This document shows, piece after piece, positions 1,505 through 21,332 of a stretch of 64,000 nucleotides of DNA. This DNA is from Anaerolineaceae bacterium (lineage in GTDB: Bacteria > Chloroflexota > Anaerolineae > Aggregatilineales > Phototrophicaceae). The notes under the pieces were generated by a model. The model did not search any database and was not told where the DNA came from. It worked only from the letters and a program-made list of their open reading frames with translations. Numbering within the stretch: the first letter of the stretch is position 1; each line of letters begins with the position of its first letter. A program made the translations under genes and the position numbers. Where the stretch lies: the NCBI GenBank assembly GCA_002702065.1, contig NZXX01000001.1, forward strand, positions 2,356,001 through 2,420,000, read 5' to 3'.

Positions 1505-2545
1505 CTAATTTGATTCAACCGGGGTATTGGTTTCCCAGAGCGGTTCAAGCTGGGGATGAATACAGCGTACATAGTGCCCGCCCTCCTGTTGGGCCAGTGC
1601 CGGTTCGGGGTCCAGGCATTCTGGCGTGGCAAACTGGCAGCGCGGCGCAAAACGACAGCCGGACGGGATATTCATGGCATTTGGCAATTCGCCATCGAGG
1701 TCTGGTCGTTCGCGCACAACATCCGGGTCAACCACTGGCACCGCGTTTAGCAGCGCACGTGTATACGGATGGTTGGCGTTGTGCATCACTTTTGAGGTCG
1801 GTCCAATCTCGACCACCTTGCCCAGATACATGATCGCTGTCCGGTCGCACAGATACTGCACCGTCGACAGATCATGCGAAATAAAAATGATCGTGACACC
1901 CAGGTTCCGCCGCAGTTCATCGAGCAAGTTGAGAATGCCGCTGCGGATGGAGACATCCAGCATTGACACCGGCTCGTCGGCTACCAGCACGCGTGGTTCC
2001 AGCACAATGGCGCGGGCGATGGATACACGCTGCCGCTGACCACCGCTCAGTTTCTGAGGATGACTGTCGAGCAGCGTGTCGTCGGCATTGAGGCCGGAGA
2101 GTATCAGGGCGCGGCGCACCCGTTCGCGCAGCTCCCGCTTATCACGAATGCCATTGACCATGAGGGGTTCGGCGACGGTACGATAGATGGTGAAGTGCGG
2201 GTTCAGTGTCGAATACGGGTCCTGAAAGATAATTTGCACCCCGCGACGAAACTGCGGCATCTCCTGCTTGCTCATATGGGCGATATCCTTGCCCTCAAAC
2301 AGGATTTTGCCGCTGGTAGGCGTTTGCAGGCGCACGATCAATTCGCCGAGGGTACTCTTGCCCGAGCCACTTTCCCCCACCAGACCCAATATCTCGCCGG
2401 AAGCCACGCTCAGGTCGACCCCATCTACCGCTTTAACGTACTTGCGATCACGATCCAGAATATCCGCCAGCAAGCCACGACGCACCTGATACCATTTGTG
2501 AACATCTTGCAATTCAAGGATCGGTGCCGGATTTATTTCAGCCAT
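1505..2545 (-). CDS. oligopeptide/dipeptide-type ABC transporter ATP-binding protein (DppF/OppF-like)
   Basis: Walker A GLVGESGSGKST, signature LSGGQRQRVSIARA, Walker B VLVADEPVSMLD, C-terminal CRFAPRC cysteine motif. Confidence 0.93.
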   Translation of the reverse strand: MAEINPAPILELQDVHKWYQVRRGLLADILDRDRKYVKAVDGVDLSVASGEILGLVGESGSGKSTLGELIVRLQTPTSGKILFEGKDIAHMSKQEMPQFRRGVQIIFQDPYSTLNPHFTIYRTVAEPLMVNGIRDKRELRERVRRALILSGLNADDTLLDSHPQKLSGGQRQRVSIARAIVLEPRVLVADEPVSMLDVSIRSGILNLLDELRRNLGVTIIFISHDLSTVQYLCDRTAIMYLGKVVEIGPTSKVMHNANHPYTRALLNAVPVVDPDVVRERPDLDGELPNAMNIPSGCRFAPRCQFATPECLDPEPALAQQEGGHYVRCIHPQLEPLWETNTPVESN

Positions 2546-3593
2546 GAGGAGATGTTCCGTTCATTGGTGACGCGAAGGTATCCCGTGTCGCGCTTTCCGG
2601 GTTCCATGTGGCTTCATTGCCAGCCAGGTTCAGCATTTCTTCCGCTTTATCGACATAATGACAGGCCGCATAATGCCCAGGCCGTACTTGAACCAGCGGT
2701 GGTTCTTCGGATGTGCAGCGTTCGGTTGCAAACGGACAACGAGATGCAAAACGACAACCCGTCGGCGGCGGTGCCAGCTTCGGTGGATGACCGGGTATCG
2801 AGATCAGTCGATGTGGATGGCGTATATCCGGAAAGGCATTCTTCAACCCCATCGTGTAGGGATGCGCGGGCCGTTTCAGGACGTCGCCAATCGGGCCGAA
2901 TTCAGCAAATTTCCCGGCATACATCACCGCCACCAGATCACAGGTTTCGGCAATCACGCCGATGTCGTGCGAGATGTACACCATCGCAAATCCGAACTGC
3001 TTTTGCAGCTCGATAATCTGCTTGAGAATGCGGTCCTGAACAATGACGTCCAGCGCGGTAGTCGGCTCATCCGCAATAATCAGGCGCGGGTTCAACGCCA
3101 GCGCCATCGCTATGACCAGCCGCTGTTTCATGCCGCCGCTGAGCTGATGCGGGTAATCGTTCAGCCGCTGCGGGGCGATCCCGACCAGTTGACACAGACT
3201 TTCGGCGCGTGTTTCAGCTTCCTTCTTCGACATGGGGTCATGTGCCTGTATCGCCTCGACGATCTGATCACGCAGGCGATAGACCGGGTCCAGGCTGTTC
3301 ATGGCACTCTGGGGCACCAGCGCGATGTCTTTCCAGCGCACGGCGTTCAGTGCCTCCGGGCTCAGGTCCAGCAGCTCGGTGCCGTCCCAGCGGATGCTCC
3401 CCCCCGCGATCCGCGCAGGCCGCGGCAGCAGTTTCATCAGCGTCTTGGCAACGGTGGTCTTGCCACAGCCGGACTCCCCCACAATGCCCAGATTCTGCCC
3501 GATGTCCAGTTTGAAACTGACCCCGTCGACAGCCTGCACCGGTGGGGACCCGGCATACGTAACTTTCAGATCATTGACTTCTAATAGCGACAT
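2538..3593 (-). CDS. oligopeptide/dipeptide-type ABC transporter ATP-binding protein (DppD/OppD-like)
   Basis: [52 protein letters not shown]. Confidence 0.93.
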   Translation of the reverse strand: MSLLEVNDLKVTYAGSPPVQAVDGVSFKLDIGQNLGIVGESGCGKTTVAKTLMKLLPRPARIAGGSIRWDGTELLDLSPEALNAVRWKDIALVPQSAMNSLDPVYRLRDQIVEAIQAHDPMSKKEAETRAESLCQLVGIAPQRLNDYPHQLSGGMKQRLVIAMALALNPRLIIADEPTTALDVIVQDRILKQIIELQKQFGFAMVYISHDIGVIAETCDLVAVMYAGKFAEFGPIGDVLKRPAHPYTMGLKNAFPDIRHPHRLISIPGHPPKLAPPPTGCRFASRCPFATERCTSEEPPLVQVRPGHYAACHYVDKAEEMLNLAGNEATWNPESATRDTFASPMNGTSPHG

Positions 3594-3596
3594 CGA

Positions 3597-4460
3597 CTAT
3601 TCCACAAGATTAGGATTGGCGATTGGTTCGAGCGCACGCGTGATAAAGTAGCTGGAAATCACCACCAGGACAATTGACAGGCCCGGCGCCATCATCCACC
3701 ACCACGCCTGCCGCATCGCGCCGCTGGCAAAGGCGGTCTGTAAAATGATGCCCCAGCTCATCGCCTGCGGTGGCCCAAAGCCGAGAAAACTGATGCTGGC
3801 TTCGGCAATAATGGCCCAGCCAATCGTGATAGGCACGTACATTAAGATGACTGGAAAAATATTGGGCGCGATGTGCTGGTAGAGAATGCGGGCGTCGGAC
3901 GCACCGGCGACCCTGGCCGCCTTGACAAATGGTCGCTGCGACAGCGATAGCACCAGTGCCCGGATGACACGCGCAGGCGACCGCCACATAATCAGTGTCA
4001 TGACCAGCACCAGGTTGAACACGCTGGGCCCCAACAGGCCGACAAGCAGAATCGCAAACGGTTCAAACGGAATCGAATAACTGATATCCACCAGCCGCAT
4101 CAGAAAATCGTCGACCCGCCCCCCGAAATAACCGGCAATCAGCCCGACATTGGCGCCGATCAGCGCGACGGAAAGCGCCGACAAAAATCCGACCAGCAGC
4201 GCAACCCGGCTGCCATAAACCACCTGGCTAAAAATATCGCGGGCGAGGTTGTTGGTGCCAAACAGGAAACGGGTCGAGGGCGGTTCGTACTTCAGCGCAA
4301 CATCCGTCTCCGCATCAGTGATAATCTCATCCGGGTCATAAGGGGCGATCTGTGGCGCAAACAGGGCAACGACCGCAAACAACACGATCACGACCAGGCC
4401 AAACAAAGCCATTTTGTCAGCCAGAATTGCGCGAAAGATGAGGTTCATATTGGAAAACAT
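3597..4460 (-). CDS. ABC transporter permease (DppC-like)
   Basis: Binding-protein-dependent permease; FGTNNLARDIFSQVVYGSR and ASISFLGFGPPQAMSWG. Confidence 0.92.
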   Translation of the reverse strand: MFSNMNLIFRAILADKMALFGLVVIVLFAVVALFAPQIAPYDPDEIITDAETDVALKYEPPSTRFLFGTNNLARDIFSQVVYGSRVALLVGFLSALSVALIGANVGLIAGYFGGRVDDFLMRLVDISYSIPFEPFAILLVGLLGPSVFNLVLVMTLIMWRSPARVIRALVLSLSQRPFVKAARVAGASDARILYQHIAPNIFPVILMYVPITIGWAIIAEASISFLGFGPPQAMSWGIILQTAFASGAMRQAWWWMMAPGLSIVLVVISSYFITRALEPIANPNLVE

Positions 4461-4468
4461 GGGCGGCC

Positions 4469-5449
4469 TCAGTGATAACTAATGCGCGGATCGAGATAGG
4501 CATAGGCGAGATCGGCAAGCAGATTCATGAGCAGAACCATGACCGCCAGTAACAGAAATGCACCCTGCGCGACCGGAAAATCCTGCCGGGTGACCGCCTG
4601 TACGATCTCGCGCCCCAACCCCGGCCAGGAGAACACCACCTCGATCACTGTCATACCGCCCAGCGCCATGCCGATATTGACAGCAGCGGCGGTCACAACC
4701 GGCAAAATACTGTTACGGACGGCGTGGCGGTAGATGACCTGACGTTCCGGCAGGCCTTTCGCGCGCGCCATTTCGATGTAATCTTCGTTGAGGGTCTCCA
4801 GCACAGTATTACGCAACAGCAATAGCGGCAGCGTCATGGTGTACAACCCGGAGACCACCACCGGCAAAATCAGGTGATGCAGGAAGTCGATATTGAAGTA
4901 CTTCTCAAAATCGTTCGCCGCGATATACCCAACAGAGCGCATCCCGGAATGCGGAAACCAGCCCAGATAGAACGAAAAGATCGTTACAGCCAGCATCCCG
5001 GTCCAGAACTGCGGTGCAGAACGAAAGAACAGTGTAAAAGAGAGGCCGACACTTTCGCTCAGTCTGCCACGACGGGTGGCGAGAAAGGCCCCGCACACGA
5101 TGCCAATGGGATAGGCAAACAGAAAGGAGGCCAGCGCCAGGACTATGGTGTTGCCAACCCGGCTGCCCAGATGCTCCAGCACCGGTTCGCGCGAAAAGAA
5201 CGAAATCCCGAAGTCGCCACGCAGCAGATTACCGATGTAATGAAGGTACTGTTCGCCAATAGGACGATCCAGCCCAAAGCTTTGCAGCAGCGCTGCCCGC
5301 GTCTCAGCCGGGAATGTCGGGTCCACAACCATCGTGGTCGGGTCGCCCGGCAACAGCCGAAACAGCACAAACACCATAGTCGCAATGACCCAGATGGTGA
5401 TGATTGTCTGAAAGATGCGGCGAAACAAATACCCACGTATATTGACCAT
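4469..5449 (-). CDS. ABC transporter permease (DppB-like)
   Basis: N-terminal RIFQTIITIWVIATMVFVLFRLLPGDP; EYIEMARAKGLPERQVIYRHAVRNSILPVVT. Confidence 0.93.
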   Translation of the reverse strand: MVNIRGYLFRRIFQTIITIWVIATMVFVLFRLLPGDPTTMVVDPTFPAETRAALLQSFGLDRPIGEQYLHYIGNLLRGDFGISFFSREPVLEHLGSRVGNTIVLALASFLFAYPIGIVCGAFLATRRGRLSESVGLSFTLFFRSAPQFWTGMLAVTIFSFYLGWFPHSGMRSVGYIAANDFEKYFNIDFLHHLILPVVVSGLYTMTLPLLLLRNTVLETLNEDYIEMARAKGLPERQVIYRHAVRNSILPVVTAAAVNIGMALGGMTVIEVVFSWPGLGREIVQAVTRQDFPVAQGAFLLLAVMVLLMNLLADLAYAYLDPRISYH

Positions 5450-5575: not shown

Positions 5576-6712
5576 CTAGCTCGATAGGTCGATGCGCTCC
5601 ACATCCCCTTCGCGATACTTACTCAAGCGGGACTCGTCAAGTTCAAAGCCCAAACCAGGTCCGGTCGGGACGACAAAGCCACCATCCTTCATGGCAATCG
5701 GTTCCACGCCCAGGTCTTCGCTTAACAATGCCTGTCCGCTCATCTCGCAGCCGAGGTCAATGCTGGGGCTGGAACCCGCCAGATGCAAACCCGCCGATGC
5801 GCCGATGACACTCTCCAGCGCCCCGCCGACATAGCCGCGCATCCCAAAAGCCTGCGCCAACCCAGCCATTTTCTTCGAGTTCAACAGCCCGCCGGGGCCA
5901 ATGATATAGATGCTCACATAGTCTGCGGCGCGGTTCTTGGCGATGTTCGCCAACGCTTCGAGCGACTTCGCCGCTTCATCGGCCATGATCGGAATCGGCG
6001 ACTGGCGCGTAATTTCGATCATGCCCTCGATGTCATTCATGTGAATCGGCTGTTCGAGGAAGTCGAGCCGGTAGGGGGCCAGCATCTGTGTCACCCGAAT
6101 GGCCGTTTTGAGGTCATAGGCCTGGTTCGCGTCCGCCCGAATGCTGATGTCATCACCCAGCTCCTGGCGCAGCGCCTTGACCATCTCGACATCGTCTTCG
6201 GCAGCCTGCCGTCCGGTCTTCACCTTAAGGATGCGCCAGCCACGCTCGACCATACGAACCGCCTCATCGACTGCCGTTTTGGTGTCGACAATCGGCAGCG
6301 ACCAACTAATCGGCACCGCGTCGCGCACCTTGCCTCCCAGCAGGTTATAGACCGGCGTGTTCAGGGCTTTACCGGCAATATCGTAGGCCGCCATGATGAG
6401 GGCACCCTTCGCGCGCTGGTTGCCCGGCACAGCCCGGTTGAGCGCGGTAGTCAGGGCTTCCTGATTGAAAGGGTCGTGCCCCAGTATGGCCGGGACAAGC
6501 TTCGTGCGAAGAACGACGCGTACAGTCCCAGGTGTCTCGCCAAGCTGCGAATGACCCACCATATGGGGTGCCTCGCCAACCCCAATGATGCCTTCATCGG
6601 TATACAACTTGACCACGACATTTTCCTGGTTGGTCGTCGTACCAATTGCCATTTGATGTGGGCGCACGACAGGGATCTTGAGCGATTGAATCTCAACCGC
6701 GGTGATTTTCAT
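5576..6712 (-). CDS. mandelate racemase/muconate lactonizing enzyme (enolase superfamily) protein
   Basis: KxK motif (LKVKTG), metal-ligand motifs IRADANQAY, FLEQPI, IMADEAAKS. Confidence 0.9.
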   Translation of the reverse strand: MKITAVEIQSLKIPVVRPHQMAIGTTTNQENVVVKLYTDEGIIGVGEAPHMVGHSQLGETPGTVRVVLRTKLVPAILGHDPFNQEALTTALNRAVPGNQRAKGALIMAAYDIAGKALNTPVYNLLGGKVRDAVPISWSLPIVDTKTAVDEAVRMVERGWRILKVKTGRQAAEDDVEMVKALRQELGDDISIRADANQAYDLKTAIRVTQMLAPYRLDFLEQPIHMNDIEGMIEITRQSPIPIMADEAAKSLEALANIAKNRAADYVSIYIIGPGGLLNSKKMAGLAQAFGMRGYVGGALESVIGASAGLHLAGSSPSIDLGCEMSGQALLSEDLGVEPIAMKDGGFVVPTGPGLGFELDESRLSKYREGDVERIDLSS

Positions 6713-6931: not shown

Positions 6932-8560
6932 TTATTCCGCCGGGAACAGCAGTCGCCCGCTGTCATCCCAGCTGTAACCAGCATCGGTCAGAATCTGCCG
7001 CGCAGCTTCCAGGTCGAAGCTGGGGAACGTCAGGTCCGGGTCATGCCAGGCGGCATTGGCCGGGGCGATAAATCCGGCACCGGGAACCGCGTAGCCATCC
7101 AGCAGCGTGTTGACAATGGTGTCATAGTCGATGGTGTGGGCGATGGCCTGACGGAACGCTGGATCATCGAAGGGCGGAATACGCAGGTTGAAGCCCACGT
7201 AGTACACGCCGAAGTCCTGCTCCTCGATACGTGTCAGATAGTCATACTGCTCCAGTTCCTCGATCTGCGTCGGCAGCAGACGACGATCCGGCATCTGGAC
7301 ATCACCGCTGACCAGACCCTGGAACAACGCATCCGGGGTGGCATACACCACGCTGGAGAAGCTGTCGATTTCGGGTGCCTGGAAGTGGTCCTTGTAAGCC
7401 ATCAGCGTCAGCACTTCACCACGCTGCCAGCCACCCCAACTGAAGGGGCCGCTGCCAATCGGGTTGTCCACCTGGGCTTCGGCCAGCACACCATCCACGT
7501 TTTCCCAGATGTGCTTGGGAACGATCAGAATCTGGGAGAAGGTCGCCTGAAACAGCGCCGGATAGGGCTGGCTGAGGTGGAAGATCAGCGTGTAATCATC
7601 GACCTGTTCCACTTCTTCAATCGGGTCCAGGAACGGGGCGTAAATCGCCGCACCTTCTGCCTTCTGGATGTCGTAGCTGTACTTCACATCTTCGGCGGTA
7701 ACCGGCTCGCCATCGTGGAAGGTCATGCCCTGCCGCACATTGACCTGCACGGTGGTATCGTCGATCACTTCCCAGCTCTCGGCAGCCCACGGTTCGACCG
7801 TGCCGTCAGGCCGGACGCGCCCCAGCATGTCGTAGATCAGACGCAGGATGTCGGTGTTGGCACCACCTGTCACCGGCGCAAACAGGTTGACCGTATCGAT
7901 GTCACCGGCTTTACCCATCGCCAGCATCCGCTGATCGGTAATGGGTGTCATGCTCAGCAGGTTCCAGATGTTGAACAGGCCCTGCCCCATCATCGGTGTT
8001 GGGTTTTCGAATAGCGTGTTGTTGTAGGCCGTTACTTCTGTGACGTGATACAGCGCAATCGCTGGTAAATCTTCCGCCAGCTTCTGCTGGGTCTGATAAA
8101 CCAGATCCTGCCGCAGCGCCTCATCCATTGTGGTTCGCTGCGCTTCGATCAGGGCATCATATTCTTCGCTGCAATACCCCTGATAATTGACGCCGGTATC
8201 GACACCTGGGCAGGTAAACGGACGATTCAAAAGCACGTCAGGGTCCAGCCGTTCCGGTCGGCTGACGTAGCCGGAGATAAAGGCATGGAAGTCATCATTC
8301 GGCGGGCTGTTTAAGCGTTGCGACAAGGCCTGGAAGTCCATACCTGTCACCTCGACACTGAGACCAAGCTCTTCCCACGCCTGAGTCAGCAACAAACCTG
8401 CTTCGTAACGAATGGGGTCATAGCTGGCGGTGGGAATAATAAACTGGAGCGTGGAGATTTCAGAACCTTCCTGTAAAGCGGGTTTTGCAAACGCGTTGAA
8501 CCCCCCTAAAGACAAGAAGCCGACAACGAGAAACAGCTTGAAAAGGAAACGTTGACGCAT
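6932..8560 (-). CDS. ABC transporter substrate-binding protein, family 5 (peptide/Ni type) with apparently circularly permuted domain order
   Basis: ATG at 8560 with RBS GGAGGATGG; signal peptide MRQRFLFKLFLVVGFLSLGGFNAFA. C-terminal-type SBP_bac_5 segment (SYDPIRYEAGLLLTQAWEELGLSVEV...YCSEEYDALIEAQ...) precedes the N-terminal-type segment (GTVEPWAAESWEV...VRQGMTFHDGEPVTAEDVKYSYD). Confidence 0.85.
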   Translation of the reverse strand: MRQRFLFKLFLVVGFLSLGGFNAFAKPALQEGSEISTLQFIIPTASYDPIRYEAGLLLTQAWEELGLSVEVTGMDFQALSQRLNSPPNDDFHAFISGYVSRPERLDPDVLLNRPFTCPGVDTGVNYQGYCSEEYDALIEAQRTTMDEALRQDLVYQTQQKLAEDLPAIALYHVTEVTAYNNTLFENPTPMMGQGLFNIWNLLSMTPITDQRMLAMGKAGDIDTVNLFAPVTGGANTDILRLIYDMLGRVRPDGTVEPWAAESWEVIDDTTVQVNVRQGMTFHDGEPVTAEDVKYSYDIQKAEGAAIYAPFLDPIEEVEQVDDYTLIFHLSQPYPALFQATFSQILIVPKHIWENVDGVLAEAQVDNPIGSGPFSWGGWQRGEVLTLMAYKDHFQAPEIDSFSSVVYATPDALFQGLVSGDVQMPDRRLLPTQIEELEQYDYLTRIEEQDFGVYYVGFNLRIPPFDDPAFRQAIAHTIDYDTIVNTLLDGYAVPGAGFIAPANAAWHDPDLTFPSFDLEAARQILTDAGYSWDDSGRLLFPAE

Positions 8561-8599
8561 GTTGACCATCCTCCTGCTAACGTGCTTTGACTGCGAGAT

Positions 8600-8855: not shown

Positions 8856-9047
8856 CAGAACACAGCAGCTTTACAAATGTCAAATTTTTACCGTTCATGA
8901 GCCTGTACTTAACATGCATGTAAGGGTACGGGCAAAGTCGCCCAAGTATAGTACTATGAATACTGGGCGAACCAGTCGAAGCGGCTGGTGGCTGCATCAA
9001 CAACAACGTTTGACAAGTGTTTTTTGGTCATGCAAGGAGGTCCATTC

Positions 9048-9791
9048 ATGGACAATAATGAGCTTTTTCAGGCAGTTAAGAAGGTCCGCGTCTCGGACGG
9101 TGTGGTCGAGCAAATTCTCGGTTTGATTGAACAGGGCCGACTGAAACCCGGCGATCAACTGCCCAGTGAACGCGAACTCGTGGAACTGCTGCGGGTTGGC
9201 CGGGCCACCGTGCGCGAGGCCCTGCGCATGCTCGAAGTTCAGGGCATGATTACGGTTCGTCCGGGCAAAGGCGCTTTTGTCGCCGACGATATCAACCGGA
9301 TTTCCGGGCACGAGGCTATTCGTATCTGGCAGATGGAACATGCCAACGAAATTCTCGACCTGCTGGAAATTCGCGAAGCACTCGAGCGACGTGCCGCCTA
9401 TCATGCTGCCCAGCGCGCCAGCAAGAATATCATCAAGGAACTCCAGGAAGTATTCGACGAGGCCGAACAATGTGTCGAAAAAGGCGATATCGCCCGCCTC
9501 GGCTATGTGGATCATCGGTTCCACAGCCTGCTGGGCAAGGCTAGCGGTAACCCTGCCCTATCCCAGATTATTGATGCTCTTGGCGAAACAATGCCCAGTC
9601 CGATCCGCTCCATTCAGCGGCTGCCAGGGCGCGGGAAACAATCCCTAGAGGAACATCGTGCCATTCTCCACGCCATTATGAACGGCGATGCCGAAGGTGC
9701 GGAGGTGGCCGTTTCGGAGCATATTCGCAGCTTATGCGAACTGCTCAAGTCACTCAGTAACGAAAGCAGCGTTGTACCAGAGGTCAAGTGA
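9048..9791 (+). CDS. GntR-family (FadR/FCD subfamily) transcriptional regulator
   Basis: wHTH GDQLPSERELVELLRVGRATVREALRMLEVQGMITVRPGKGAFV plus C-terminal FCD helical domain; RBS GGAGG 8 bp before ATG. Confidence 0.93.
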   Translation: MDNNELFQAVKKVRVSDGVVEQILGLIEQGRLKPGDQLPSERELVELLRVGRATVREALRMLEVQGMITVRPGKGAFVADDINRISGHEAIRIWQMEHANEILDLLEIREALERRAAYHAAQRASKNIIKELQEVFDEAEQCVEKGDIARLGYVDHRFHSLLGKASGNPALSQIIDALGETMPSPIRSIQRLPGRGKQSLEEHRAILHAIMNGDAEGAEVAVSEHIRSLCELLKSLSNESSVVPEVK

Positions 9792-9832: not shown

Positions 9833-10912
9833 ATGGGTTCTATTGAGCGAATTCTCGTCATGGGTGCCGGCCCCGGTGGTTTGGCAAATGCCGCTGTTCT
9901 AGGCAGTCAGGGTAGTCATGTTACACTGTTCAACCGCTCACTTGACCGCCTTCAAGGGACTATCCGGCGCGGCGGTGTCGAAATCGAAGGTTCGCTTGGC
10001 GAGGCGTTTGTGCCCGTTCCGAAGATCACAGATGATATCGAAGACGCGATGAAGGATGCCCAGCTCATCCTCATCGTTGTCCCGGCCTATGGGCAAATGT
10101 CCATGCTCGATCTGATCATCCCCCATCTGCGCCCCGGCCAGATTATCTTTTTCCTGTGCGGCTCGGTCGGCTCACTGGAAGGCGCGCTGCGCATGAAGGC
10201 CGCCGGTATCGACCTGAACAAAGTCTTTATTGGCGAAACCGCCACCCTACCCCAGTCGGCCCGCGTGGTTGGCGAAAGCAAGGTCCGCATTCTGGCGCGG
10301 GCAAAGGCCATGGTCCGGCTCTCCGTATTCCCCGGACACAACATTGACCACGTCGTTGAGACTCTGGGCGATACCTTCAAACTCAATGCGAAACGCAACG
10401 TGCTGGAACCCGGCCTCAACAACCCCAATTTTCTCGTTCACCCGGCACCCATGCTGCTCAACTACGCGGCCATTGAGCGTGCTGAAGGCATGTTCTCGCT
10501 GATGAACGAAGGCATGACTGACGGTGTGCTGCGCTGCCTCGACGCAGCGGATGCCGAACGGACCAGCATTCAGGCCGCACTCGGTCTGGAAGTACTGCCG
10601 GTTGATGACATGTATATCGAACAGGGCAGCAGCCCGGATGTCTACCGGACCAAGGGCGAACCCTTTAAGCTGCGGGACCGCATCTGGTCTCGATACATTG
10701 ATGAAGATGTCCCCTACGGCTCCGTTATGCTGTCCTCGCTGGGCCGCATGATCGGCGTGCCAACGCCTGTTTACGACAGCATCAACACCATTATGTCGGT
10801 TGTGGAGCAAAAAGACTTCGTGTCAATGGGCCGTACCGTCGACAAACTGGGCATAGCCGGGCTGGATCGTGAGCAGTTGATGCACTATCTGGAAACCGGC
10901 GAGCGTCCCTGA
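9833..10912 (+). CDS. NAD/NADP octopine/nopaline (opine) dehydrogenase-family protein
   Basis: N-terminal Rossmann ILVMGAGPGGLANAAVLGSQGSHVTLFNRS; conserved LNNPNFLVHPAPMLLN region typical of the octopine DH C-terminal domain. Confidence 0.8.
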   Translation: MGSIERILVMGAGPGGLANAAVLGSQGSHVTLFNRSLDRLQGTIRRGGVEIEGSLGEAFVPVPKITDDIEDAMKDAQLILIVVPAYGQMSMLDLIIPHLRPGQIIFFLCGSVGSLEGALRMKAAGIDLNKVFIGETATLPQSARVVGESKVRILARAKAMVRLSVFPGHNIDHVVETLGDTFKLNAKRNVLEPGLNNPNFLVHPAPMLLNYAAIERAEGMFSLMNEGMTDGVLRCLDAADAERTSIQAALGLEVLPVDDMYIEQGSSPDVYRTKGEPFKLRDRIWSRYIDEDVPYGSVMLSSLGRMIGVPTPVYDSINTIMSVVEQKDFVSMGRTVDKLGIAGLDREQLMHYLETGERP

Positions 10913-11014: not shown

Positions 11015-12028
11015 ATGGCGCAGGTAGAGTTCGGCCTCGGTTTTTCACACACATTGTCTCTCGATGAAGGGTTACGCATCACCCAGCGGGCGGAGGAATT
11101 GGGTTTTGCTGCAGTCTATGTGGCAGACCAGACCTTCTTCCAGGACCCGTTTGTCATCATGGCGTACTGGGCAATGCAGACCCAGCGCATCAAGCTGGTG
11201 CTGGCCGTGACCAATCCCTACACGCGACACCCGGCCCAAGTTGCACGGTCCATTGGGGTCCTCAGTGACATCACAAAGGGACGCGTTGAACTCGGCATTG
11301 GCGCGGGCAACCGGCGCGAACTGCTGCTGCCAATGGGCCACGAACAGACTGCCGCTGCCGACCGATCGCGGGAGATGGCGGCGATTGTACGCGATCTGCT
11401 GCATGGCAAAACCGTCCATTATCGCAGCGATTATGTCGTCGCCGATGAGATCAAACTCGACTGGGAACCAGCCTACCCCGATGTGCCCATCATTATCGGG
11501 GCGCGCGGTGGAAAGATGCTGGAAGTCGCGGGTGAGCTGGCAGATGGTGCGATTATCGGCGCATTGATCTCGGATGGCGGTCTGGATTATGCCCTGGGCG
11601 CGGTCGAACGCGGCGCTCAGCGGGCAGGACGTTCACTGGATGATGTCGCCATCACCAGTTGGGTGACCACTGTCCTCGCGGATGACTACGAAACCGCAGC
11701 AGGCCGCATCACCAATTCGGTTGCTCACATCATCGGCGGTGCGCCCATTTCACTGCTGAAAGCCATCGGTCTCGAAGACGACTACATTAACCAGATCAAA
11801 GCCACCTATGCGGAAGGCGGACAGGAAGCCGCCAAACAGCACGTCACCCGGCGCGAGATCGACATGCTGGCACTGGTGGGAACTGCCGATGACATCAGCG
11901 AAAAGATCGAGCGACTGACGCAGCGCGGGATTCATCAGGTCAGCCTGCGCGTCCTGGCCGCCGACTGTGATACGACGATTGCGCAGATCGAGCGTTTGGC
12001 CCGCGAGGTTCTGCCGAACTTCAAATAA
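11015..12028 (+). CDS. LLM-class flavin-dependent oxidoreductase (possibly F420-dependent, MER-like)
   Basis: Luciferase-like barrel; TNPYTRHPAQVARSIGVLSDITKGRVELGIGAG. Confidence 0.85.
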   Translation: MAQVEFGLGFSHTLSLDEGLRITQRAEELGFAAVYVADQTFFQDPFVIMAYWAMQTQRIKLVLAVTNPYTRHPAQVARSIGVLSDITKGRVELGIGAGNRRELLLPMGHEQTAAADRSREMAAIVRDLLHGKTVHYRSDYVVADEIKLDWEPAYPDVPIIIGARGGKMLEVAGELADGAIIGALISDGGLDYALGAVERGAQRAGRSLDDVAITSWVTTVLADDYETAAGRITNSVAHIIGGAPISLLKAIGLEDDYINQIKATYAEGGQEAAKQHVTRREIDMLALVGTADDISEKIERLTQRGIHQVSLRVLAADCDTTIAQIERLAREVLPNFK

Positions 12029-12082: not shown

Positions 12083-12112
12083 ATCCGCCAGCTACGCCTA
12101 TGATTGGCGGAT
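12083..12112. repeat. intercistronic hairpin
   Basis: ATCCGCCA ... TGGCGGAT 8-bp stem between the LLM and M24 genes; no T-tract. Confidence 0.45.
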
Positions 12113-12145
12113 AACCTTATCCAACCGTTAATAAAGGGGACTAGT

Positions 12146-13369
12146 ATGAGTGCCAGTACATCTACAGGCCTGAGACAGCCTGAATATGCCATGTTTCCGA
12201 CCGAGGAATATCTGGAGCGCGTGCGCAAAGCACGGCTGTTGATGGAAGAACGCGGCGTGGACGCGCTCTTGCTGACGGCAAAAGAAAATGTCGTCTATTT
12301 TTCGGGTATCCGCACCATTGGCTGGACCTCCAAACATCGCCCGGTGGGGGTCATCGTGCCACGTGAAAGCGATAAACCCGTCATCAGCGTCATTCCGGAA
12401 ACGCTGTATGACGTCTCCTTTCATTCCTCATGGGTCGATGAAATTCGCCCCTGGGGTGGCTGGCGCCGCAGCGACGCCGTGCCGGACCCGATTATCGGCA
12501 TCGAAAACGCGATCAAGGAACTGGGCCTCGAAAGCGGCACCATCGGCCTGGAACTGGGTTACGGGCAGCGAATCGCCATGTCGCAGGAAGATTTCGCCGA
12601 CCTGCAAAGCCGGCTAAAAGGCACGACCATCGTCGATGCTTCGGGCATCATCTGGGACCTGCGCATGATTAAATCTGACCGCGAAGTCGAGGCACTGCGC
12701 AAAGCCTGCGACGCCACCAACAAAGCCTTCGAACGTGGCTTCAGCAGTATCTACCCCGGTATGCTGGAGCGCGAACTGGCCGCCAACATCATGTCCGAAC
12801 TGGCGCTGGAAACCCAGGAAATCCCTGGCTTTCTCATGATCCGCTCCGGTCCGATGAAATATGGCATGGTCAATGTACTGCCGTTCGAGAAACCTATGCA
12901 GCCCGGCGACATCGTGGTGGTGGATGTCGGCGCCAATTACAACTACTACTGGTCCGATTTTATGCGCATGGCCTGCATCGGCGAACCCAGTGCCGAACAG
13001 CGCCGCTTTTTTGAAGCGGAAAGCAAATCACAGCAGGCGGGTGTGGATGTAATCCGGCCCGGCATTAAACTGCATGAAATCTTTGATGCCTGTTACGACT
13101 CACTCATGGACAGTCATATGAAGGAGCACGTTCCGGGGCTGGAGCGTGTGGGGCATGGTGTCGGGCTGGACCCGCACGAGCCGCCCAGCATTTCCAAAAC
13201 CAGCCAGGTCATCGCCCAACCCAATATGATCCTCACCGTCGAGCCGATCTTCTGGGACAAGCCAGACCATGTCATCGGCAACTTTGCGCTCGAAGATCAA
13301 GTGGTGGTAACGGAAACCGGACACGAAATTCTGAGCACCTTTTCCAAAGAACTGTACATCGTCGATTAA
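12146..13369 (+). CDS. M24-family metallopeptidase (Xaa-Pro aminopeptidase/creatinase-like)
   Basis: Metal ligand motifs VDVGANYNYYWSDFMR, GHGVGLDPHEPPSI, LTVEPIFW, FALEDQVVVTETGHE; RBS AAAGGGGA before ATG 12146. Confidence 0.9.
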   Translation: MSASTSTGLRQPEYAMFPTEEYLERVRKARLLMEERGVDALLLTAKENVVYFSGIRTIGWTSKHRPVGVIVPRESDKPVISVIPETLYDVSFHSSWVDEIRPWGGWRRSDAVPDPIIGIENAIKELGLESGTIGLELGYGQRIAMSQEDFADLQSRLKGTTIVDASGIIWDLRMIKSDREVEALRKACDATNKAFERGFSSIYPGMLERELAANIMSELALETQEIPGFLMIRSGPMKYGMVNVLPFEKPMQPGDIVVVDVGANYNYYWSDFMRMACIGEPSAEQRRFFEAESKSQQAGVDVIRPGIKLHEIFDACYDSLMDSHMKEHVPGLERVGHGVGLDPHEPPSISKTSQVIAQPNMILTVEPIFWDKPDHVIGNFALEDQVVVTETGHEILSTFSKELYIVD

Positions 13370-13708: not shown

Positions 13709-14761
13709 ATGAAAACCAGACAGCGGGCTGCGCAGGGCAGTCTATTATTGGCATTGCTCCTCATGCTGAACATCGTATCAATCATCCCCGCCGCGGGGCA
13801 GGAAAATACGCAATGCGACGCCGGTTTTCGCCTGTTCGATCATGAATATCTGGCGACAGAACCGGTCTGTATCCCGGAGAATCCGCAGAAAGTCGTGGTC
13901 GCATGGGCCTTTAATGCCACGGCGCTGCTGCGCGCAGATGTGCCTATCATCGGCACGAACAGCATTGCATTCAATCAGGGGCAGTTCCCGGAATGGGCCG
14001 ATGACCTTGGACAGATCACCGATGTCGGACGGCCTCTCAACCTTGAGGTAATACTGGGGCTATCCCCTGACCTGATTATTACATCTGATTTCGATGCAGA
14101 AGGCAATGAGGATGCCCTGTCCAGCATTGCGCCGACCGTCTTGTTTACCTGGGAAGGCACCCATATCTGGCGTGATGTCGCCCAGCTGATGTTTGATGCT
14201 GCGGGACGGCTGAAGGAATATGACGCGTTGATGATCGAACAGGAAACACGCGCTGCCGAGCTGGGTGCCCTGATTGATGATCCGCAGGCCATTGAGCTTT
14301 CAATTGTCAATGTTCGTGCAGACCGCATATTGTTGTATACACAATACTCGCCCGGCGGCATGATCGTCGAGGAGGTTGGGTTCAGTCGGCCAGAGGTCCA
14401 GTTGTGGCCCGATGCTGAATCACCTGCTTATCTACGAGACATTTCGTTTGAGGAATTACAGCAGGCCGATGGCGATTACATCCTCATATTCGGCGGATTT
14501 GCGCTGGACGAAGATGCACAGGTAACACTCGATGAATTGCTGGAAAGTCCACTCTGGCAATCACTGGGTGCTGTACAGGCTGATCGAGTCTACATCTCCA
14601 ATGTGAACTTCGCCGGCGGTGATATTGGCAATGCTCATGCCATGTTGGATGAACTGGCAGCCGCCTTTGGTGTGGCCGACGACTTCAGCCCCAACCCCTA
14701 TATCACTCGGGCCGAAATCCCGGCTCGCGCACCCGAAGCGACCGAGGAAGCCGCTGGCTGA
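13709..14761 (+). CDS. ABC-type Fe-siderophore/cobalamin-like periplasmic substrate-binding protein
   Basis: Signal peptide SLLLALLLMLNIVSIIPAAGQ; PBP2 type III features PQKVVVAWAFNATALLRADVPIIGTNS, NLEVILGLSPDLIITSDF. Confidence 0.85.
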   Translation: MKTRQRAAQGSLLLALLLMLNIVSIIPAAGQENTQCDAGFRLFDHEYLATEPVCIPENPQKVVVAWAFNATALLRADVPIIGTNSIAFNQGQFPEWADDLGQITDVGRPLNLEVILGLSPDLIITSDFDAEGNEDALSSIAPTVLFTWEGTHIWRDVAQLMFDAAGRLKEYDALMIEQETRAAELGALIDDPQAIELSIVNVRADRILLYTQYSPGGMIVEEVGFSRPEVQLWPDAESPAYLRDISFEELQQADGDYILIFGGFALDEDAQVTLDELLESPLWQSLGAVQADRVYISNVNFAGGDIGNAHAMLDELAAAFGVADDFSPNPYITRAEIPARAPEATEEAAG

Positions 14762-14841: not shown

Positions 14842-15906
14842 TCAGTCGGATACAGGTGTGGCCTGGGCCTGCATCGCAGCAACCCCCGTTAAATTCAGTT
14901 CTTCCGCAAAGTGGCAGGCAGCTAACCTCCCCGGCTGAATCTCGCGCAGCGGCGGTGTATCGGTTTTGCAGACTGCCTCGGCGTACGGGCAGCGCGGGTG
15001 GAAATAACAGCCAGATGGCGGATTGGCAGGGTCGGCGACATCGCCTTGCAGCACGATCCGTTTTTTCTGGGACTTCGCGCTGGGGTCGGTGATGTGCACG
15101 GCAGAAAGCAGCGCTTCGGTATAGGGGTGTAACGGACGCTGGTAAAGCTGTTTCGTGGGGGCGATTTCAACGATTTTGCCCACATACATCACCGCAACGC
15201 GCGTGCTGATATGTTTGACCACGCTGAGATCATGCGAAATAAACAGGTAGGTCAGGTCCAGCCGCTGTTGCAGGTGTTTGAGCAAATTCAGAATCTGAGC
15301 CTGTACCGAGACGTCGAGCGCGGAGACAGGTTCATCAGCAATGATCAACTGCGGGTTGAGCGCCAAAGCACGCGCCACACCGAGCCGCTGCCGCTGCCCG
15401 CCACTAAACGCATTCGGATAGCGGGAAAGATATTCCGGACGCAGGCCCACCAGCCGCAGCAGTTCGGCAACACGTCCTTCCAGGTCCTTACCTTTGGCGA
15501 CATTGTTCAGGCGCAGCGGCTCCCCCACAATCTCGAGGACCGTCTTGCGCGGGTTGAGCGAGGTAAATGGGTCCTGAAACACCATCTGCATGTGCTGGCG
15601 CATCGGGCGCAGTTCATTGTTGTTTAACGGTGCCAGATCAGTGGGCGACGTGTCCGGGCCATCCGGGCGAAAAAGAATCTGTCCTGAGGTGGGGTTCAGC
15701 AAGCGGATGATCAGTCGTCCGGTGGTGGTCTTGCCACAGCCACTTTCGCCCACCAGGGCCAGCGTCTCACCGTGATACAGATCGAAGGAGACGTCATCCA
15801 CCGCTTTGACATAACCCGTTGTACGCGATAAAAAGCCGGATGACAGTGGAAAGTATTTTTTTAATCCCTTTACGTCAAGCAGTTTGTAGGCAGCTTTGTC
15901 AGTCAT
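14842..15906 (-). CDS. oligopeptide-type ABC transporter ATP-binding protein (OppF-like)
   Basis: [52 protein letters not shown]. Confidence 0.93.
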
Positions 15907-16946
15907 CGGGTTACTTCCTCAGATGGCGCATTCGGCTTTTCGATGGCAGGGTCATAGAGCACACAGCGAACCTGCTGCCCGTTTTCCAGCGTGATGAGGG
16001 GTGGTTCGATCTGGTCGCAGACACCCACTATCGCATGATCGCAGCGCGGGTGAAACGGGCAACCGGTCAAGCGGGTATAAGGATCAGGCACCATACCGCG
16101 CACTGTTTGCAGCCATTCCCGGTCCTGCTCGATGCGCGGCAGCGACTCCAGCAGGCTGACCGTATAGGGATGACGGGGATTACTGAAAATATCCTCGACC
16201 CGGCCACGCTCGACTTCGCGCCCCAGGTACATGACGACCACCTCATCCGCCATTTCCGCAATCACGCCCAGGCTGTGCGTGATAAAAATAATCGCCATGT
16301 TGAAATCGTTCTGAAGCTGCTGCATCAGTTCCAGAATCTGGGCTTCGGTCGTCACGTCCAGCGCAGTCGTCGGTTCATCCGCAATCAGCAGGTTAGGCCG
16401 GCAGGACAGCGCCATGGCAATCATCACACGCTGGCACATGCCGCCGCTCAGTTGATGCGGATATTTGTCAAGCTGGCTTTCCGGCTTGGGCAGATGCACC
16501 TGCTGCAGCATTTCAAGCGTGCGGATTCGCGCTTCCTGCTTGCTCACATTCTGATGCAGCAGAATATTCTCCGCGATCTGATCGCCCACCGTGTGAACCG
16601 GGCTGAGCGAGGCACGCGGCTCCTGAAAAATCATCGAGATTTCGGCACCGCGAATCCGGCGCATTTCATCACTCATGGGCGGCAGCGTCATCAGGTCGAT
16701 GGTTTCGGCATTTGTACGGTGATACAGAATCTGCCCGCCGACGACGCGCCCCGGTGGTCGGACAATGTTGAGGATGGAGCGCGCGGTCATGCTTTTGCCA
16801 CAGCCACTTTCGCCGACCACGCCAACCACCTGACCGCGTTTGACGCTGAAGTTGGCCCCATCAACAGCGCGCACCATGCCCTCGGGGGTATTGAACTGCA
16901 CCTGAATATCCTTCACTTCGATGAGTGTATCGGTGGTGGATACCAT
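15903..16946 (-). CDS. oligopeptide-type ABC transporter ATP-binding protein (OppD-like)
   Basis: [53 protein letters not shown]. Start placed at [15 protein letters not shown]. Confidence 0.92.
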
Positions 16947-16950
16947 ACCG

Positions 16951-18153
16951 TTATATCCTCCCGGAGTAGGGATCAGCTGCATCGCGCAGGCCATCACCCA
17001 CAAAATTGAACGCCAGTACCGCCACGATCACAAAAGCCGCCGGGGCCAGCAGCCAGGGGTAAAGCGCAATGACCTGAACCTGCTGCGCGTCTTTCAGCAG
17101 CACCCCCCAGCTAATCGTCGGCGCTGTCAGGCCCAGGCCGAGAAAGCTCAGGGCGGTTTCACCCAGGATCATGCCCGGAATGGCCAGTGTCAGATAGACA
17201 AGCACGTAGCTCATAAAGGAAGGAATCAGGTGCGACCAGATCAAATACCATTCACTGGCCCCGGCCTGCCGCGCCGCCAACACAAAATCCTCATTTCGCA
17301 GCGACAGGAATTTCCCGCGGACGACACGTGCCAGCGTCGTCCAGCCCACAAACGAGAGGATGAGAGTCACGCCGAAGTACATCTGCACCTGCGGCCAGTT
17401 CGGGGGTAGCGCGGCGGCCAGCGCCATCCACAACGGAATCGTCGGCATGGAACGAATAAACTCGATCATGCGCTGGATCAGCAGGTCCGGCATACCGCCA
17501 TACAAACCGGAAACACCACCCAGCATCAGCCCGAACACCAGACTGAGCATCACCCCCACCAGGCCAACCGTCAGCGAAATGCGCGCGCCGTGTAGAACGC
17601 GCGAAAACAGATCACGCCCAAAATTATCCGACCCCAGCGGATATAAGGGGCCGATTTCGGATGGGTCCGCACCGACAATACCAAAAAGGTGCACATCCGT
17701 ATCGATGATGCCCCACAAACGATAGGGTTCACCCCGCACGAACAACCCAACCGGGTAGCGCGGTCCTTCGACATCCTCGACGAAAATTCGCTCGAAATTG
17801 ACGCGGTCAACCTCGCTCTTGAGTTCGTAGACGAACGGCAGGCTAAAGTTGCCATCCGCATCGACCAAATGAATCGTGCGTGGCGGCGCATACACATAGC
17901 GGTTAAAACGCGCCTGTGGGTCGTAGGGGCTCACAAAGTCTGCAAACAGCATTGCCAGATACATCACAATCAGAACAAAAGCACCAAGCAACGCCAGCTT
18001 GTTTTTGCGAAAACGCAGAATCATCAACTCTCGTGGCGAGAGAAAGTCGACGGTCTGTTCCTCAGCGCTTTGAATAGTGCTGTCGACCCAGCCTTGCTCC
18101 TCCCAGACAGTGACTGCCGGGGAGTCTCGGTTCACGGAATTGTCTGTAGTCAC
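16951..18153 (-). CDS. ABC transporter permease (OppC-like) with large extracytoplasmic insertion
   Basis: LGSDNFGRDLFSRVLHGARISLTVG, ETALSFLGLGLTAPTISWGVLL. GTG start overlaps the stop of the upstream permease (GTGA). Confidence 0.9.
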   Translation of the reverse strand: MTTDNSVNRDSPAVTVWEEQGWVDSTIQSAEEQTVDFLSPRELMILRFRKNKLALLGAFVLIVMYLAMLFADFVSPYDPQARFNRYVYAPPRTIHLVDADGNFSLPFVYELKSEVDRVNFERIFVEDVEGPRYPVGLFVRGEPYRLWGIIDTDVHLFGIVGADPSEIGPLYPLGSDNFGRDLFSRVLHGARISLTVGLVGVMLSLVFGLMLGGVSGLYGGMPDLLIQRMIEFIRSMPTIPLWMALAAALPPNWPQVQMYFGVTLILSFVGWTTLARVVRGKFLSLRNEDFVLAARQAGASEWYLIWSHLIPSFMSYVLVYLTLAIPGMILGETALSFLGLGLTAPTISWGVLLKDAQQVQVIALYPWLLAPAAFVIVAVLAFNFVGDGLRDAADPYSGRI

Positions 18154-19145
18154 TCTGAATGATCTCCGAAACGTATACGTGGATCTACCCAAGCAAGCAG
18201 GATGTCCGACAACAGCGTGCCGACCACCGTAAGTGCGCTCAGGATCATAAGAAAACTGGCGGCCAGAAACATGTCCTGGGTAATGAGTGCCGACCACAGC
18301 AGGGGGCCAGCCGTCGGCAACCCCAGCACCAGCGACACCAGCACGGACCCGGATACAATCGCGGGCAGCTGCCAACCCACAGTGCTCAAAATCGGGTTGA
18401 GGGCCACGCGCACCGGATACTTCCAGACCATGCGGCCTTCTTTCAGCCCTTTCGCCCGTGCCGTTTCGACATAGGGTTTGCCCAGCTCATCGAGCGTCGT
18501 TGCCCGCATGATGCGCATGATCTCGGCAACACTGGCTGTACCCAGCACCAGCACCGGCAGCCACAGATGCTTCGCCATATCCCAGACGCGCAGCAATGAC
18601 CAGGGCGCGTCCTGAAATTCCGGCGAAAACAGCCCGCCTGCGCTCATGCCAAAATACTTGATGCCCACATACATCAGGATAAGCGCCAGCAGAAAGCCGG
18701 GTGTCGCAACACCGATGAAACCAAAAATTGTCAGCACATAATCGAGAAAGGTGTACTGACGGGTTGCAGAAAAAATGCCCATGGGAATAGCCAGGCCATA
18801 GCCCACGATGAGCGTCAGGACCGAAATAAACATAGTAATCATAATGCGCTCACCAATCAGTTCTGCCACAGGCCGGTTCCAATAGAAGGACTGGCCCATA
18901 TCGCCCTGTAGAAAATTGGTGACCCACTTGAAATACTGCGAAATCATGGATTCGTCGAGGCCATACTGCACGCGCAGCGCTTCGATTTCATTCTGGTCAA
19001 CAATCTGGCCGCTGGCGGACAGGTTGGCCACATAAGTCGTCAGGAAGTCACCCGGGGGGAGCTGAATCACAATAAAACTGAAAATCGATATTGCCACAAG
19101 AGTCGGAACAGCCTGTAGGGTTCGTCGGATAATGTAAGCACGCAT
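18150..19145 (-). CDS. ABC transporter permease (OppB-like)
   Basis: MRAYIIRRTLQAVPTLVAISIFSFIVIQLPPGD; YVETARAKGLKEGRMVWKYPVRVALNPI. Confidence 0.92.
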   Translation of the reverse strand: MRAYIIRRTLQAVPTLVAISIFSFIVIQLPPGDFLTTYVANLSASGQIVDQNEIEALRVQYGLDESMISQYFKWVTNFLQGDMGQSFYWNRPVAELIGERIMITMFISVLTLIVGYGLAIPMGIFSATRQYTFLDYVLTIFGFIGVATPGFLLALILMYVGIKYFGMSAGGLFSPEFQDAPWSLLRVWDMAKHLWLPVLVLGTASVAEIMRIMRATTLDELGKPYVETARAKGLKEGRMVWKYPVRVALNPILSTVGWQLPAIVSGSVLVSLVLGLPTAGPLLWSALITQDMFLAASFLMILSALTVVGTLLSDILLAWVDPRIRFGDHSE

Positions 19146-19207
19146 AAACACCTCTAACCTGTGAATGGGGGTGCCCGCGCGACACCCCCACCGACAAAAA
19201 GCGTGAG

Positions 19208-21205
19208 TTACGATTGTTTGAAGAAGAATTGTTCAGGATGTACCGGGATGGTCCGGATGAGCGCAAAGCCCCAGATCCCTTCAGCGGGGAAATTAATGAG
19301 GTTCTGCTTCAGCACGACTGGCTTGGGCACACCCACCGCCGAGAAGGCCGGCAGGTAATCGTAGTACCAGTCCCACATTTCGCGGGCGATCGCCAGATGC
19401 TCTGCTTCGTCAGCCGTCGTACGCATGGCATTCCAGCGGTCATACTGTTCGCGGACTTCAGCCGGCGGCTCTTCCTCAATTTCGCTGGTGCCGGGGTTGA
19501 ACAGCGCCAGCTCCCACGGCCTGCCCCACTTGGCATTGGTCAGGCCAGGTAGCATCACACGCGGGAAGTTCGGCCAGGTGATATCGGAAATATCCCCTTC
19601 CCAGGCCGTCATATCAAGATCATTGGCCGCGATCAGTTCTTCAAGCAGCGTACGGCTGATCGGGCGAATAGTCACATCCAGGCCAATATCACGCCAGTAG
19701 TCACGTGCCAGCTCGAAAGTCGGCCCCATATCCGGCTGCACCGTATCGTACTGGATCACCCAGGACGCCCGGCTGCCATCCGGGAAGAGGCGGAAGCCCT
19801 CGCCATCCCGGTCGGCATAACCGGCAGCGTCGAGCAGTTCGTTCGCTTGATCCACATCATAAGCAGCCCAGTGGTCAGCATCCCCCTCCTGGTAATACTT
19901 GGAGTTGGGCCACATCGCCCACTGCCGCACCTCGCCCAGCCCAAAATGGACCAGTTCGTTGATCTCATCGCGATTCAACGCCAGCGACAGCGCATGACGA
20001 ACGTCTTTGTTCTGGAAGAACTCGCGCAGTTGTGGTTCTTTCGCCGTCAGGTTCGGGTAGAAAATGACCTTGCCCGGTGTTGTCGACTGCCACAGGAAAA
20101 TGCGTAAATTGGCCGAATCTGTACTTGCCTGATAAAGCGGCAGGTCCTGCAACGAGGAAAAGTGCCCATACAGGTCCAGTTCCCCGGCGATGAGCCGCGC
20201 CGTTTGGGTTTCACCATCAGCCACAATGTCGACTTCTACGCGGTCAATATAGGGAAGCTGTTTACCCTCGGTGTCAACTTTCCAGTAGTACGGGTTGCGC
20301 TCGTATGAATGGCGTTCCGGGCTATCCCCCACGCGAACGTAGGCGGTCATGGCTGGCAGGTCGATTTGCGCCGGCAGCGTCGACCCGACACGCATCTTAT
20401 CCTGGAAGAACTGAATCCAGGTCTCGAAACCGGCTTCTTCGACCATTCCCTGCAATTCATCCGCATCGGCATAGTCGGCGTGGAACTGCTCACCATAATG
20501 CCGCGGTGACCACAGACCACCCTGGCTGCCCGCATAGAAGCACTGAGACAGGATAATCAATGGATAAGGCGCTGCAAATGTCAGCTTCAGGGTTGTGTCA
20601 TCAATGGCTTCCATACTCAACGGCGTGCGGTCCGGACCAATGCGCCAGTCGCTGGCCGGCCCGGCGGGGAAGAGTTCGTCATTCATCTGCATATCTTCCC
20701 AGCCGAAAATGAAGTCAGCGGTCGTGAACGGTGCGCCGTCCGACCACTTCAACCCAGGGCGAAGATGCAGCGTTTGTTCGGTGGCATCATCGTTAAATTC
20801 CCAGCTTTCGGCCAACCCGCCGACAACGCTGGAGAAATCGGAATCGATGCGCAGGATCAGTTCGGTACCCATCACGGCCTGCGGATCACCAAACAGGTTA
20901 TTGGGGTTGGCGATCACAACACGGGCTGTCCCCCCATATGTGCCCACTTCTTCCAGCGGGGTGATCACTTCCGGTTCCGGTGGCAGGCGCTCATCGACCA
21001 TCGGCAGTTCACCGGCATCGACGCGTTCCCGCAGCATCGGCGCTTCTTGATACTGGCTCTGTCTGGCCGGGGCTGTACCCGGACGTGGTGAAGCTGCTGC
21101 ACTGGCGAGCGCAGCAGTAATCCCCTGGGCCTGGAGCAGACCCGCAGTGGCGCTGAATGCAGACAGTTTCAGCATATCTCGACGTGACAGAAGCTGTTTT
21201 GTCAT
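19208..21205 (-). CDS. ABC transporter substrate-binding protein, family 5, probable Tat substrate
   Basis: N-terminus MTKQLLSRRDMLKLSAFSATAGLL (Tat-like RR). Canonical SBP_bac_5 order: GGLAESWEFNDDATEQTLHLRPGLKWSDGAPFTTADFIFGWE ... DYWRDIGLDVTIRPI. Confidence 0.92.
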   Translation of the reverse strand: MTKQLLSRRDMLKLSAFSATAGLLQAQGITAALASAAASPRPGTAPARQSQYQEAPMLRERVDAGELPMVDERLPPEPEVITPLEEVGTYGGTARVVIANPNNLFGDPQAVMGTELILRIDSDFSSVVGGLAESWEFNDDATEQTLHLRPGLKWSDGAPFTTADFIFGWEDMQMNDELFPAGPASDWRIGPDRTPLSMEAIDDTTLKLTFAAPYPLIILSQCFYAGSQGGLWSPRHYGEQFHADYADADELQGMVEEAGFETWIQFFQDKMRVGSTLPAQIDLPAMTAYVRVGDSPERHSYERNPYYWKVDTEGKQLPYIDRVEVDIVADGETQTARLIAGELDLYGHFSSLQDLPLYQASTDSANLRIFLWQSTTPGKVIFYPNLTAKEPQLREFFQNKDVRHALSLALNRDEINELVHFGLGEVRQWAMWPNSKYYQEGDADHWAAYDVDQANELLDAAGYADRDGEGFRLFPDGSRASWVIQYDTVQPDMGPTFELARDYWRDIGLDVTIRPISRTLLEELIAANDLDMTAWEGDISDITWPNFPRVMLPGLTNAKWGRPWELALFNPGTSEIEEEPPAEVREQYDRWNAMRTTADEAEHLAIAREMWDWYYDYLPAFSAVGVPKPVVLKQNLINFPAEGIWGFALIRTIPVHPEQFFFKQS

Positions 21206-21332
21206 GTTTTCCTCCAATAATTATTTCGCAATGACTATTTCAAAAACAGGTTGTGGTGTGATGGTGCTCCTTTCCCGACCCCTCTATTATGCAGAGATTT
21301 GCCGCTGCCAGCCAAAACCACACAGCGACAAC

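Follow-up and report, generated by a model that had tools for sequence, protein, structure and literature searches.

The window analysed here, a stretch of 64,000 nucleotides from the genome of an Anaerolineaceae bacterium (contig NZXX01000001.1), carries on its minus strand a gene (6932–8560) for a family-5 solute-binding protein (SBP) of 542 residues and raises the question of whether an SBP of the DppA/OppA type has been circularly permuted in nature and has remained a working component of its importer. Such a permutation, with the C-terminal part of the SBP_bac_5 domain placed first and its N-terminal part last, had been proposed from sequence alone, and our analysis has confirmed this arrangement. 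The gene is a single uninterrupted open reading frame extending from an ATG at 8560 to a stop at 6932–6934, with an AGGAGG Shine-Dalgarno-like site (8570–8575, minus strand) located 9 nucleotides ahead of the ATG. In the encoded protein, a hydrophobic stretch marks a signal peptide and leader of about residues 1–37 (8450–8560) without a lipobox. It is followed by the canonical C-terminal segment (residues 38–203; 7952–8449), a short junction linking the old C terminus to the old N terminus (residues ~204–209; 7934–7951) and the canonical N-terminal and middle segment (residues ~210–542; 6935–7933), which comes last. The boundaries of the original prediction thus require only a small correction, with the swapped part starting at about residue 38 instead of ~34 and the join placed at ~204–209.

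The permuted order is evident in each of the comparisons of the protein with its relatives. SBP_bac_5 is the only Pfam family that matches the protein (PF00496, 240.8 bits compared to a curated cut-off of 32.4), and it does so in two stretches, the main one covering residues 254–535 with profile positions 1–284. A search of the whole genome assigned profile positions 1–286 to the C-terminal side (E 2.1e-64) and positions 287–358 to the N-terminal side of the protein (E 2e-4). The check named in the original prediction, a reversal of profile coordinates, is thus passed, as these do not rise monotonically along the chain and their order departs from the canonical direction from N to C, which identifies the protein as a permuted variant and not as an ordinary SBP_bac_5 member. 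An equivalent correspondence is found with solved structures, where residues 26–346 of the AppA chain (1xoc) match residues 215–533 of the query and residues 361–491 match residues 39–175. In a profile-profile comparison between 31 permuted sequences and an alignment of canonical proteins, residues 38–203 were mapped to canonical positions 375–530 (E 6.4e-31) and residues 210 to ~535 to positions 57–374 (E 1.6e-81), while five column-shuffled controls did not yield a match (probability ≤0.24%). Both segments are present once and tile the canonical paralog without loss or duplication, with the cut located at 374/375 and the join leading from 530 to 57. The remaining SBP_bac_5 genes found in the source genome are single canonical stretches, with the exception of one that shows a different permutation. 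This includes the second SBP of the window (19208–21217), which is matched by PF00496 positions 2–348 in one stretch and hence serves, as suggested, as a control with canonical order. The protein at 8560–6932 thus represents a naturally occurring circular permutation of the SBP_bac_5 order. Its best score to characterised NCBIfam family-5 equivalogs, including Opp4A, DppA, NikA, CntA and others, is 135 bits and falls below the cut-off of 650, and the swapped order escapes standard annotation because the Pfam match resembles an ordinary truncated match.

The same order is found in many relatives, which we refer to as type 1. Within the same family, 35 of 98 genomes contain matches at E ≤ 1e-60, nearly all of which span both parts in one collinear alignment, and among the 29 loci retrieved from this family besides the window, 28 are single open reading frames that show the permuted order, the remaining one being truncated by the end of its contig. 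A profile search of the class identified matches in at least 22 of 396 genomes (12 in the same family and 10 in eight other families) and a search of the phylum in at least one genome of another class, both numbers being lower bounds since scoring was limited to the three best candidates of each genome. At 11 loci from other families and the one other class, all untruncated proteins are permuted. Full-length or nearly full-length profile matches were also obtained in Halorussus salinisoli, Haladaptatus litoreus, a Candidatus Rokuibacteriota MAG and a Candidatus Baldrarchaeota MAG, and the 11 loci of these two haloarchaea and two MAGs again show the permuted order. The homologs are 30–50% identical, with columns that are conserved across the clade. 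An alignment of 20 of them shows a common start after the signal peptide and a common end at '..AGYsWDddGrLlyP', and in most homologs the chain ends at or shortly past the same point. A broader scan of contigs returned proteins in canonical order only, where the order was readable. This does not show an absence of the permutation elsewhere, because the profile search did find permuted genes in five of the genomes behind these loci, four of them outside Chloroflexota. The permuted order is thus real and inherited by independent genomes, which also upholds the earlier exclusion of a simple frameshift or truncation and satisfies the proposed search for homologs sharing the order.

Type-1 proteins carry hydrophobic N-terminal signals, with a lipobox-like motif detected in 19 of 52 by inspection and a regular expression only, and most haloarchaeal members show Tat-like motifs in their leaders. 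At a site occupied by 'GWxxxxDP' in many canonical proteins, and by 'GWGADYPD' in the second type of permutant described below, most bacterial members contain an 'RPERxDP'-like motif, which hints at an altered pocket. We also observed an apparent C-terminal transmembrane segment in the sequence of the permuted SBP of the Baldrarchaeota MAG (L228:5093–6808), which may be tethered at its new C terminus. In-frame stops flagged in some relatives resemble the terminal stop, as inferred from the ends of the reading frames.

The structural consequences of the permutation are illustrated in a model predicted by AlphaFold2 from an alignment of 31 permuted sequences that contained no canonical protein, where the chain forms a single confident fold (pLDDT 90.4, pTM 0.85). 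A first model, for which 20 close sequences had been aligned, was of low confidence (pLDDT 71.9, pTM 0.67) and its Foldseek result added little, the higher confidence of the second being a consequence of its more diverse alignment. The 50 best PDB matches found by Foldseek are all SBPs of the family-5 type, with TM scores of 0.43–0.58 over ~330–390 columns. This search is bound to the order of the chain, so that a single part of a permuted protein should align, in agreement with the ~350 columns covered. The confident modelling of the permuted sequence as a single protein agrees with the prediction, although no permutation-aware superposition has been performed. None of 60 PDB sequences matched by the permuted profile shares its order. 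The cut is located at about position 340 of DppA, between the helix containing '..ARQILTDAGY' and the next strand 'LQFIIPT'. The known domain limits of OppA and DppA place the joined old ends in domain I, whereas the new ends fall into domain III. The initial proposal that both old termini reside in domain I is thus retained and refined by the location of the new termini inside domain III.

The permuted SBP is located at the head of an operon whose genes follow on the minus strand in the order SBP, MR_MLE, DppB, DppC, DppD and DppF. The enolase-superfamily enzyme (MR_MLE, 5576–6712), which starts 219 bp behind the stop of the SBP, in agreement with the ~220 bp initially stated, has muconate cycloisomerases as nearest solved relatives and scores below the NCBI subfamily cut-off. 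DppB- and DppC-type permeases (4469–5449 and 3597–4460) and a DppD-type ATPase with ABC_tran and oligo_HPY domains (2538–3593) come next, and a DppF-type ATPase (1505–2545) was recognised from its open reading frame by its sequence and by ordered homologs at other loci. On the plus strand, a divergent GntR/FCD regulator (8988–9791) is followed by an octopine/nopaline dehydrogenase family protein (9833–10912), a luciferase-like monooxygenase (LLM) family oxidoreductase (11015–12028) and an M24 peptidase/creatinase family protein (12104–13369). Much of this arrangement is retained at a locus from another family (L119), which contains GntR, the permuted SBP, MR_MLE (71% identity), LLM, DppB-C-D-F and the opine dehydrogenase (53% identity). 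In one set of 13 loci, 12 have permease or ATPase genes of the Dpp type next to the permuted SBP, as do most loci of a second set, and no such matches were found within the stretch read at L114, L222 and L226. The enzymes encoded next to the permuted SBP differ between subclades, from which it is inferred that their ligands probably differ as well. The assumption of a small carboxylated, peptide- or opine-like compound as the cargo in the window is a guess from neighbouring enzymes only, for which there are no binding data. In five loci (L110, L111, L112, L113 and L115), open reading frames of ~700–750 residues that match DppD, probably DppD-DppF fusions, are found downstream of the permuted SBP. 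The window also contains a second Opp/Dpp-type operon (14842–21217, minus strand), which includes the SBP with canonical order, and, between both peptide-type operons, a Peripla_BP_2 binding protein of the iron/siderophore type (13709–14761, plus strand).

The history of the permutation was investigated in trees that were built after re-ordering the permuted sequences in silico. In a tree of such de-permuted sequences, the 41 members of type 1 were united in a single clade (support 1.0). After addition of divergent archaeal members, type 1 still requires a single change on the full-length tree, with an SH-aLRT support of 78. Trees of the separate halves leave the widest type-1 clade unresolved, and the type-1 sequences do not all group with each other in them. 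A single origin of type 1 within canonical family-5 proteins thus appears likely but is not proven, with only moderate support for the most divergent archaeal members. The suggestion of a tandem duplication followed by trimming remains a proposal only, as no intermediate was seen. One candidate for such an intermediate, an open reading frame of 1427 residues (L057:3334–7614) in a Fibrimonadaceae MAG, was rejected, as it combines a GH9 cellulase domain with one canonical SBP_bac_5 domain.

The second permuted SBP of the source genome (G000:C10:88182–89819, L183, minus strand), which we refer to as type 2, places profile positions 63–365 ahead of 1–49, with a cut at ~118–127 as judged by comparison to HbpA and DppA (~118/127 in DppA). 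Collinear homologs are present in 157 of 396 genomes of the class (E ≤ 1e-110), and the order is common to all 30 sequences read, including the query. Genes for DppB and DppC follow L183. In five loci (L193, L194, L202, L207 and L212), a SBP_bac_3 or Peripla_BP_6 domain is fused ahead of the type-2 SBP in one open reading frame of ~790–1010 residues. On the same full-length tree, type 2 requires one change with a support of 100, which amounts to two changes in all as compared to 32.9 for shuffled labels. Type 2 forms a separate clade, which implies at least two permutations within family 5.

Taken together, our results are very likely best explained by a working extracytoplasmic SBP with a naturally permuted DppA/OppA-type fold, whereby its function is inferred and supported by no data on expression, binding or transport. 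According to this mechanism, the old C terminus would have been fused to the former N terminus of the mature protein, with the chain reopened in domain III, by an old and inherited permutation that most simply was one event among canonical family-5 proteins. The protein would be exported, its two lobes would close like a Venus flytrap on a small solute and the solute would be handed to the adjacent DppBCDF importer. The exported and often lipid-anchored N terminus would have moved to the lobe opposite to that of canonical relatives. The assignment of this lobe rests on the known domain limits of OppA and DppA.

Among the alternatives, a repeated permutation at the same cut point, with separate archaeal and bacterial origins, is the one that survives best. 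It would be compatible with the split of type 1 in trees of separate halves and with the support of only 78 for its union, but we consider it unlikely in light of the single change required on the full-length tree and the agreement of both cut and join. Even less probable is a loss of the transport role, with the protein acting instead, for example, as a sensor. This view could draw on the few loci without adjacent permease or ATPase matches, but it is opposed by the Dpp-type genes found next to the permuted SBP in most loci and by the complete operon of the window. A decayed or non-functional remnant of two fused gene fragments, which the lack of functional data would permit, is all but excluded by the exact tiling without gaps or duplication, the presence of a signal peptide and a ribosome-binding site, the conserved columns across the clade, the intact operon and the high-confidence predicted fold. 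Finally, an assembly error or recent local rearrangement in one strain, which one genome alone could not have ruled out and for which it might be held that many relatives are draft assemblies, can be practically dismissed because dozens of genomes assembled independently, named haloarchaeal strains among them, show this order at 30–50% identity.

Among the closest counterparts, the family-5 SBPs AppA from Bacillus subtilis (1xoc) and DppA from E. coli (1dpe, 1dpp) are homologous to both parts of the window protein, which is encoded with a DppBCDF-type importer. In contrast to these proteins, its parts are swapped, with the old termini joined and the new ones located inside domain III. Natural circular permutation of the binding protein of an ABC importer has been described for the glucose-binding protein TpMglB-2 (Tp0684) from Treponema pallidum, where it is conserved in a clade and ligand binding has been retained (PMC4990184), although this protein belongs to another class of SBPs (type I / cluster B) and reflects a separate event. 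Permuted topologies among SBPs of ABC importers were also found for glycine betaine-binding proteins by structure comparison with CPSARST (PMC2395249). These belong to another family, and the relationship was detected from structure and not from sequence order within one Pfam family. The type-2 protein L183 shares with the window protein its affiliation with family 5, its permuted nature and the neighbouring DppB and DppC genes, but it differs in its cut (~118/127 in DppA), its separate clade and a retained 'GWGADYPD' motif. In line with the original statement that no described permuted DppA/OppA-type SBP was known, we did not find any permuted family-5 SBP in the literature searched, which mostly did not cover subscription papers, and such absence is no proof. 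The permuted family-5 SBP is thus real and apparently undescribed, whereas permutation was already known in other SBP clusters.

A bolder reading, towards which we lean with some reservation, holds that family 5 has undergone at least two permutations with different cuts, both of which have given rise to widespread functional lineages, one of them ranging from Chloroflexota as far as haloarchaea and one Asgard MAG, and that the relocated tethered terminus has altered the anchoring of these receptors, their fusion to other binding proteins or their docking on DppBC. Binding proteins of family 5 rank among the most common transport receptors. As suggested by the permuted lineage, docking on a DppBC-type importer does not depend on one fixed anchored terminus or on one fixed order of the lobes. 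The two different permutants in one genome constitute a natural experiment on where the fold tolerates new ends, which is useful for the design of biosensors.
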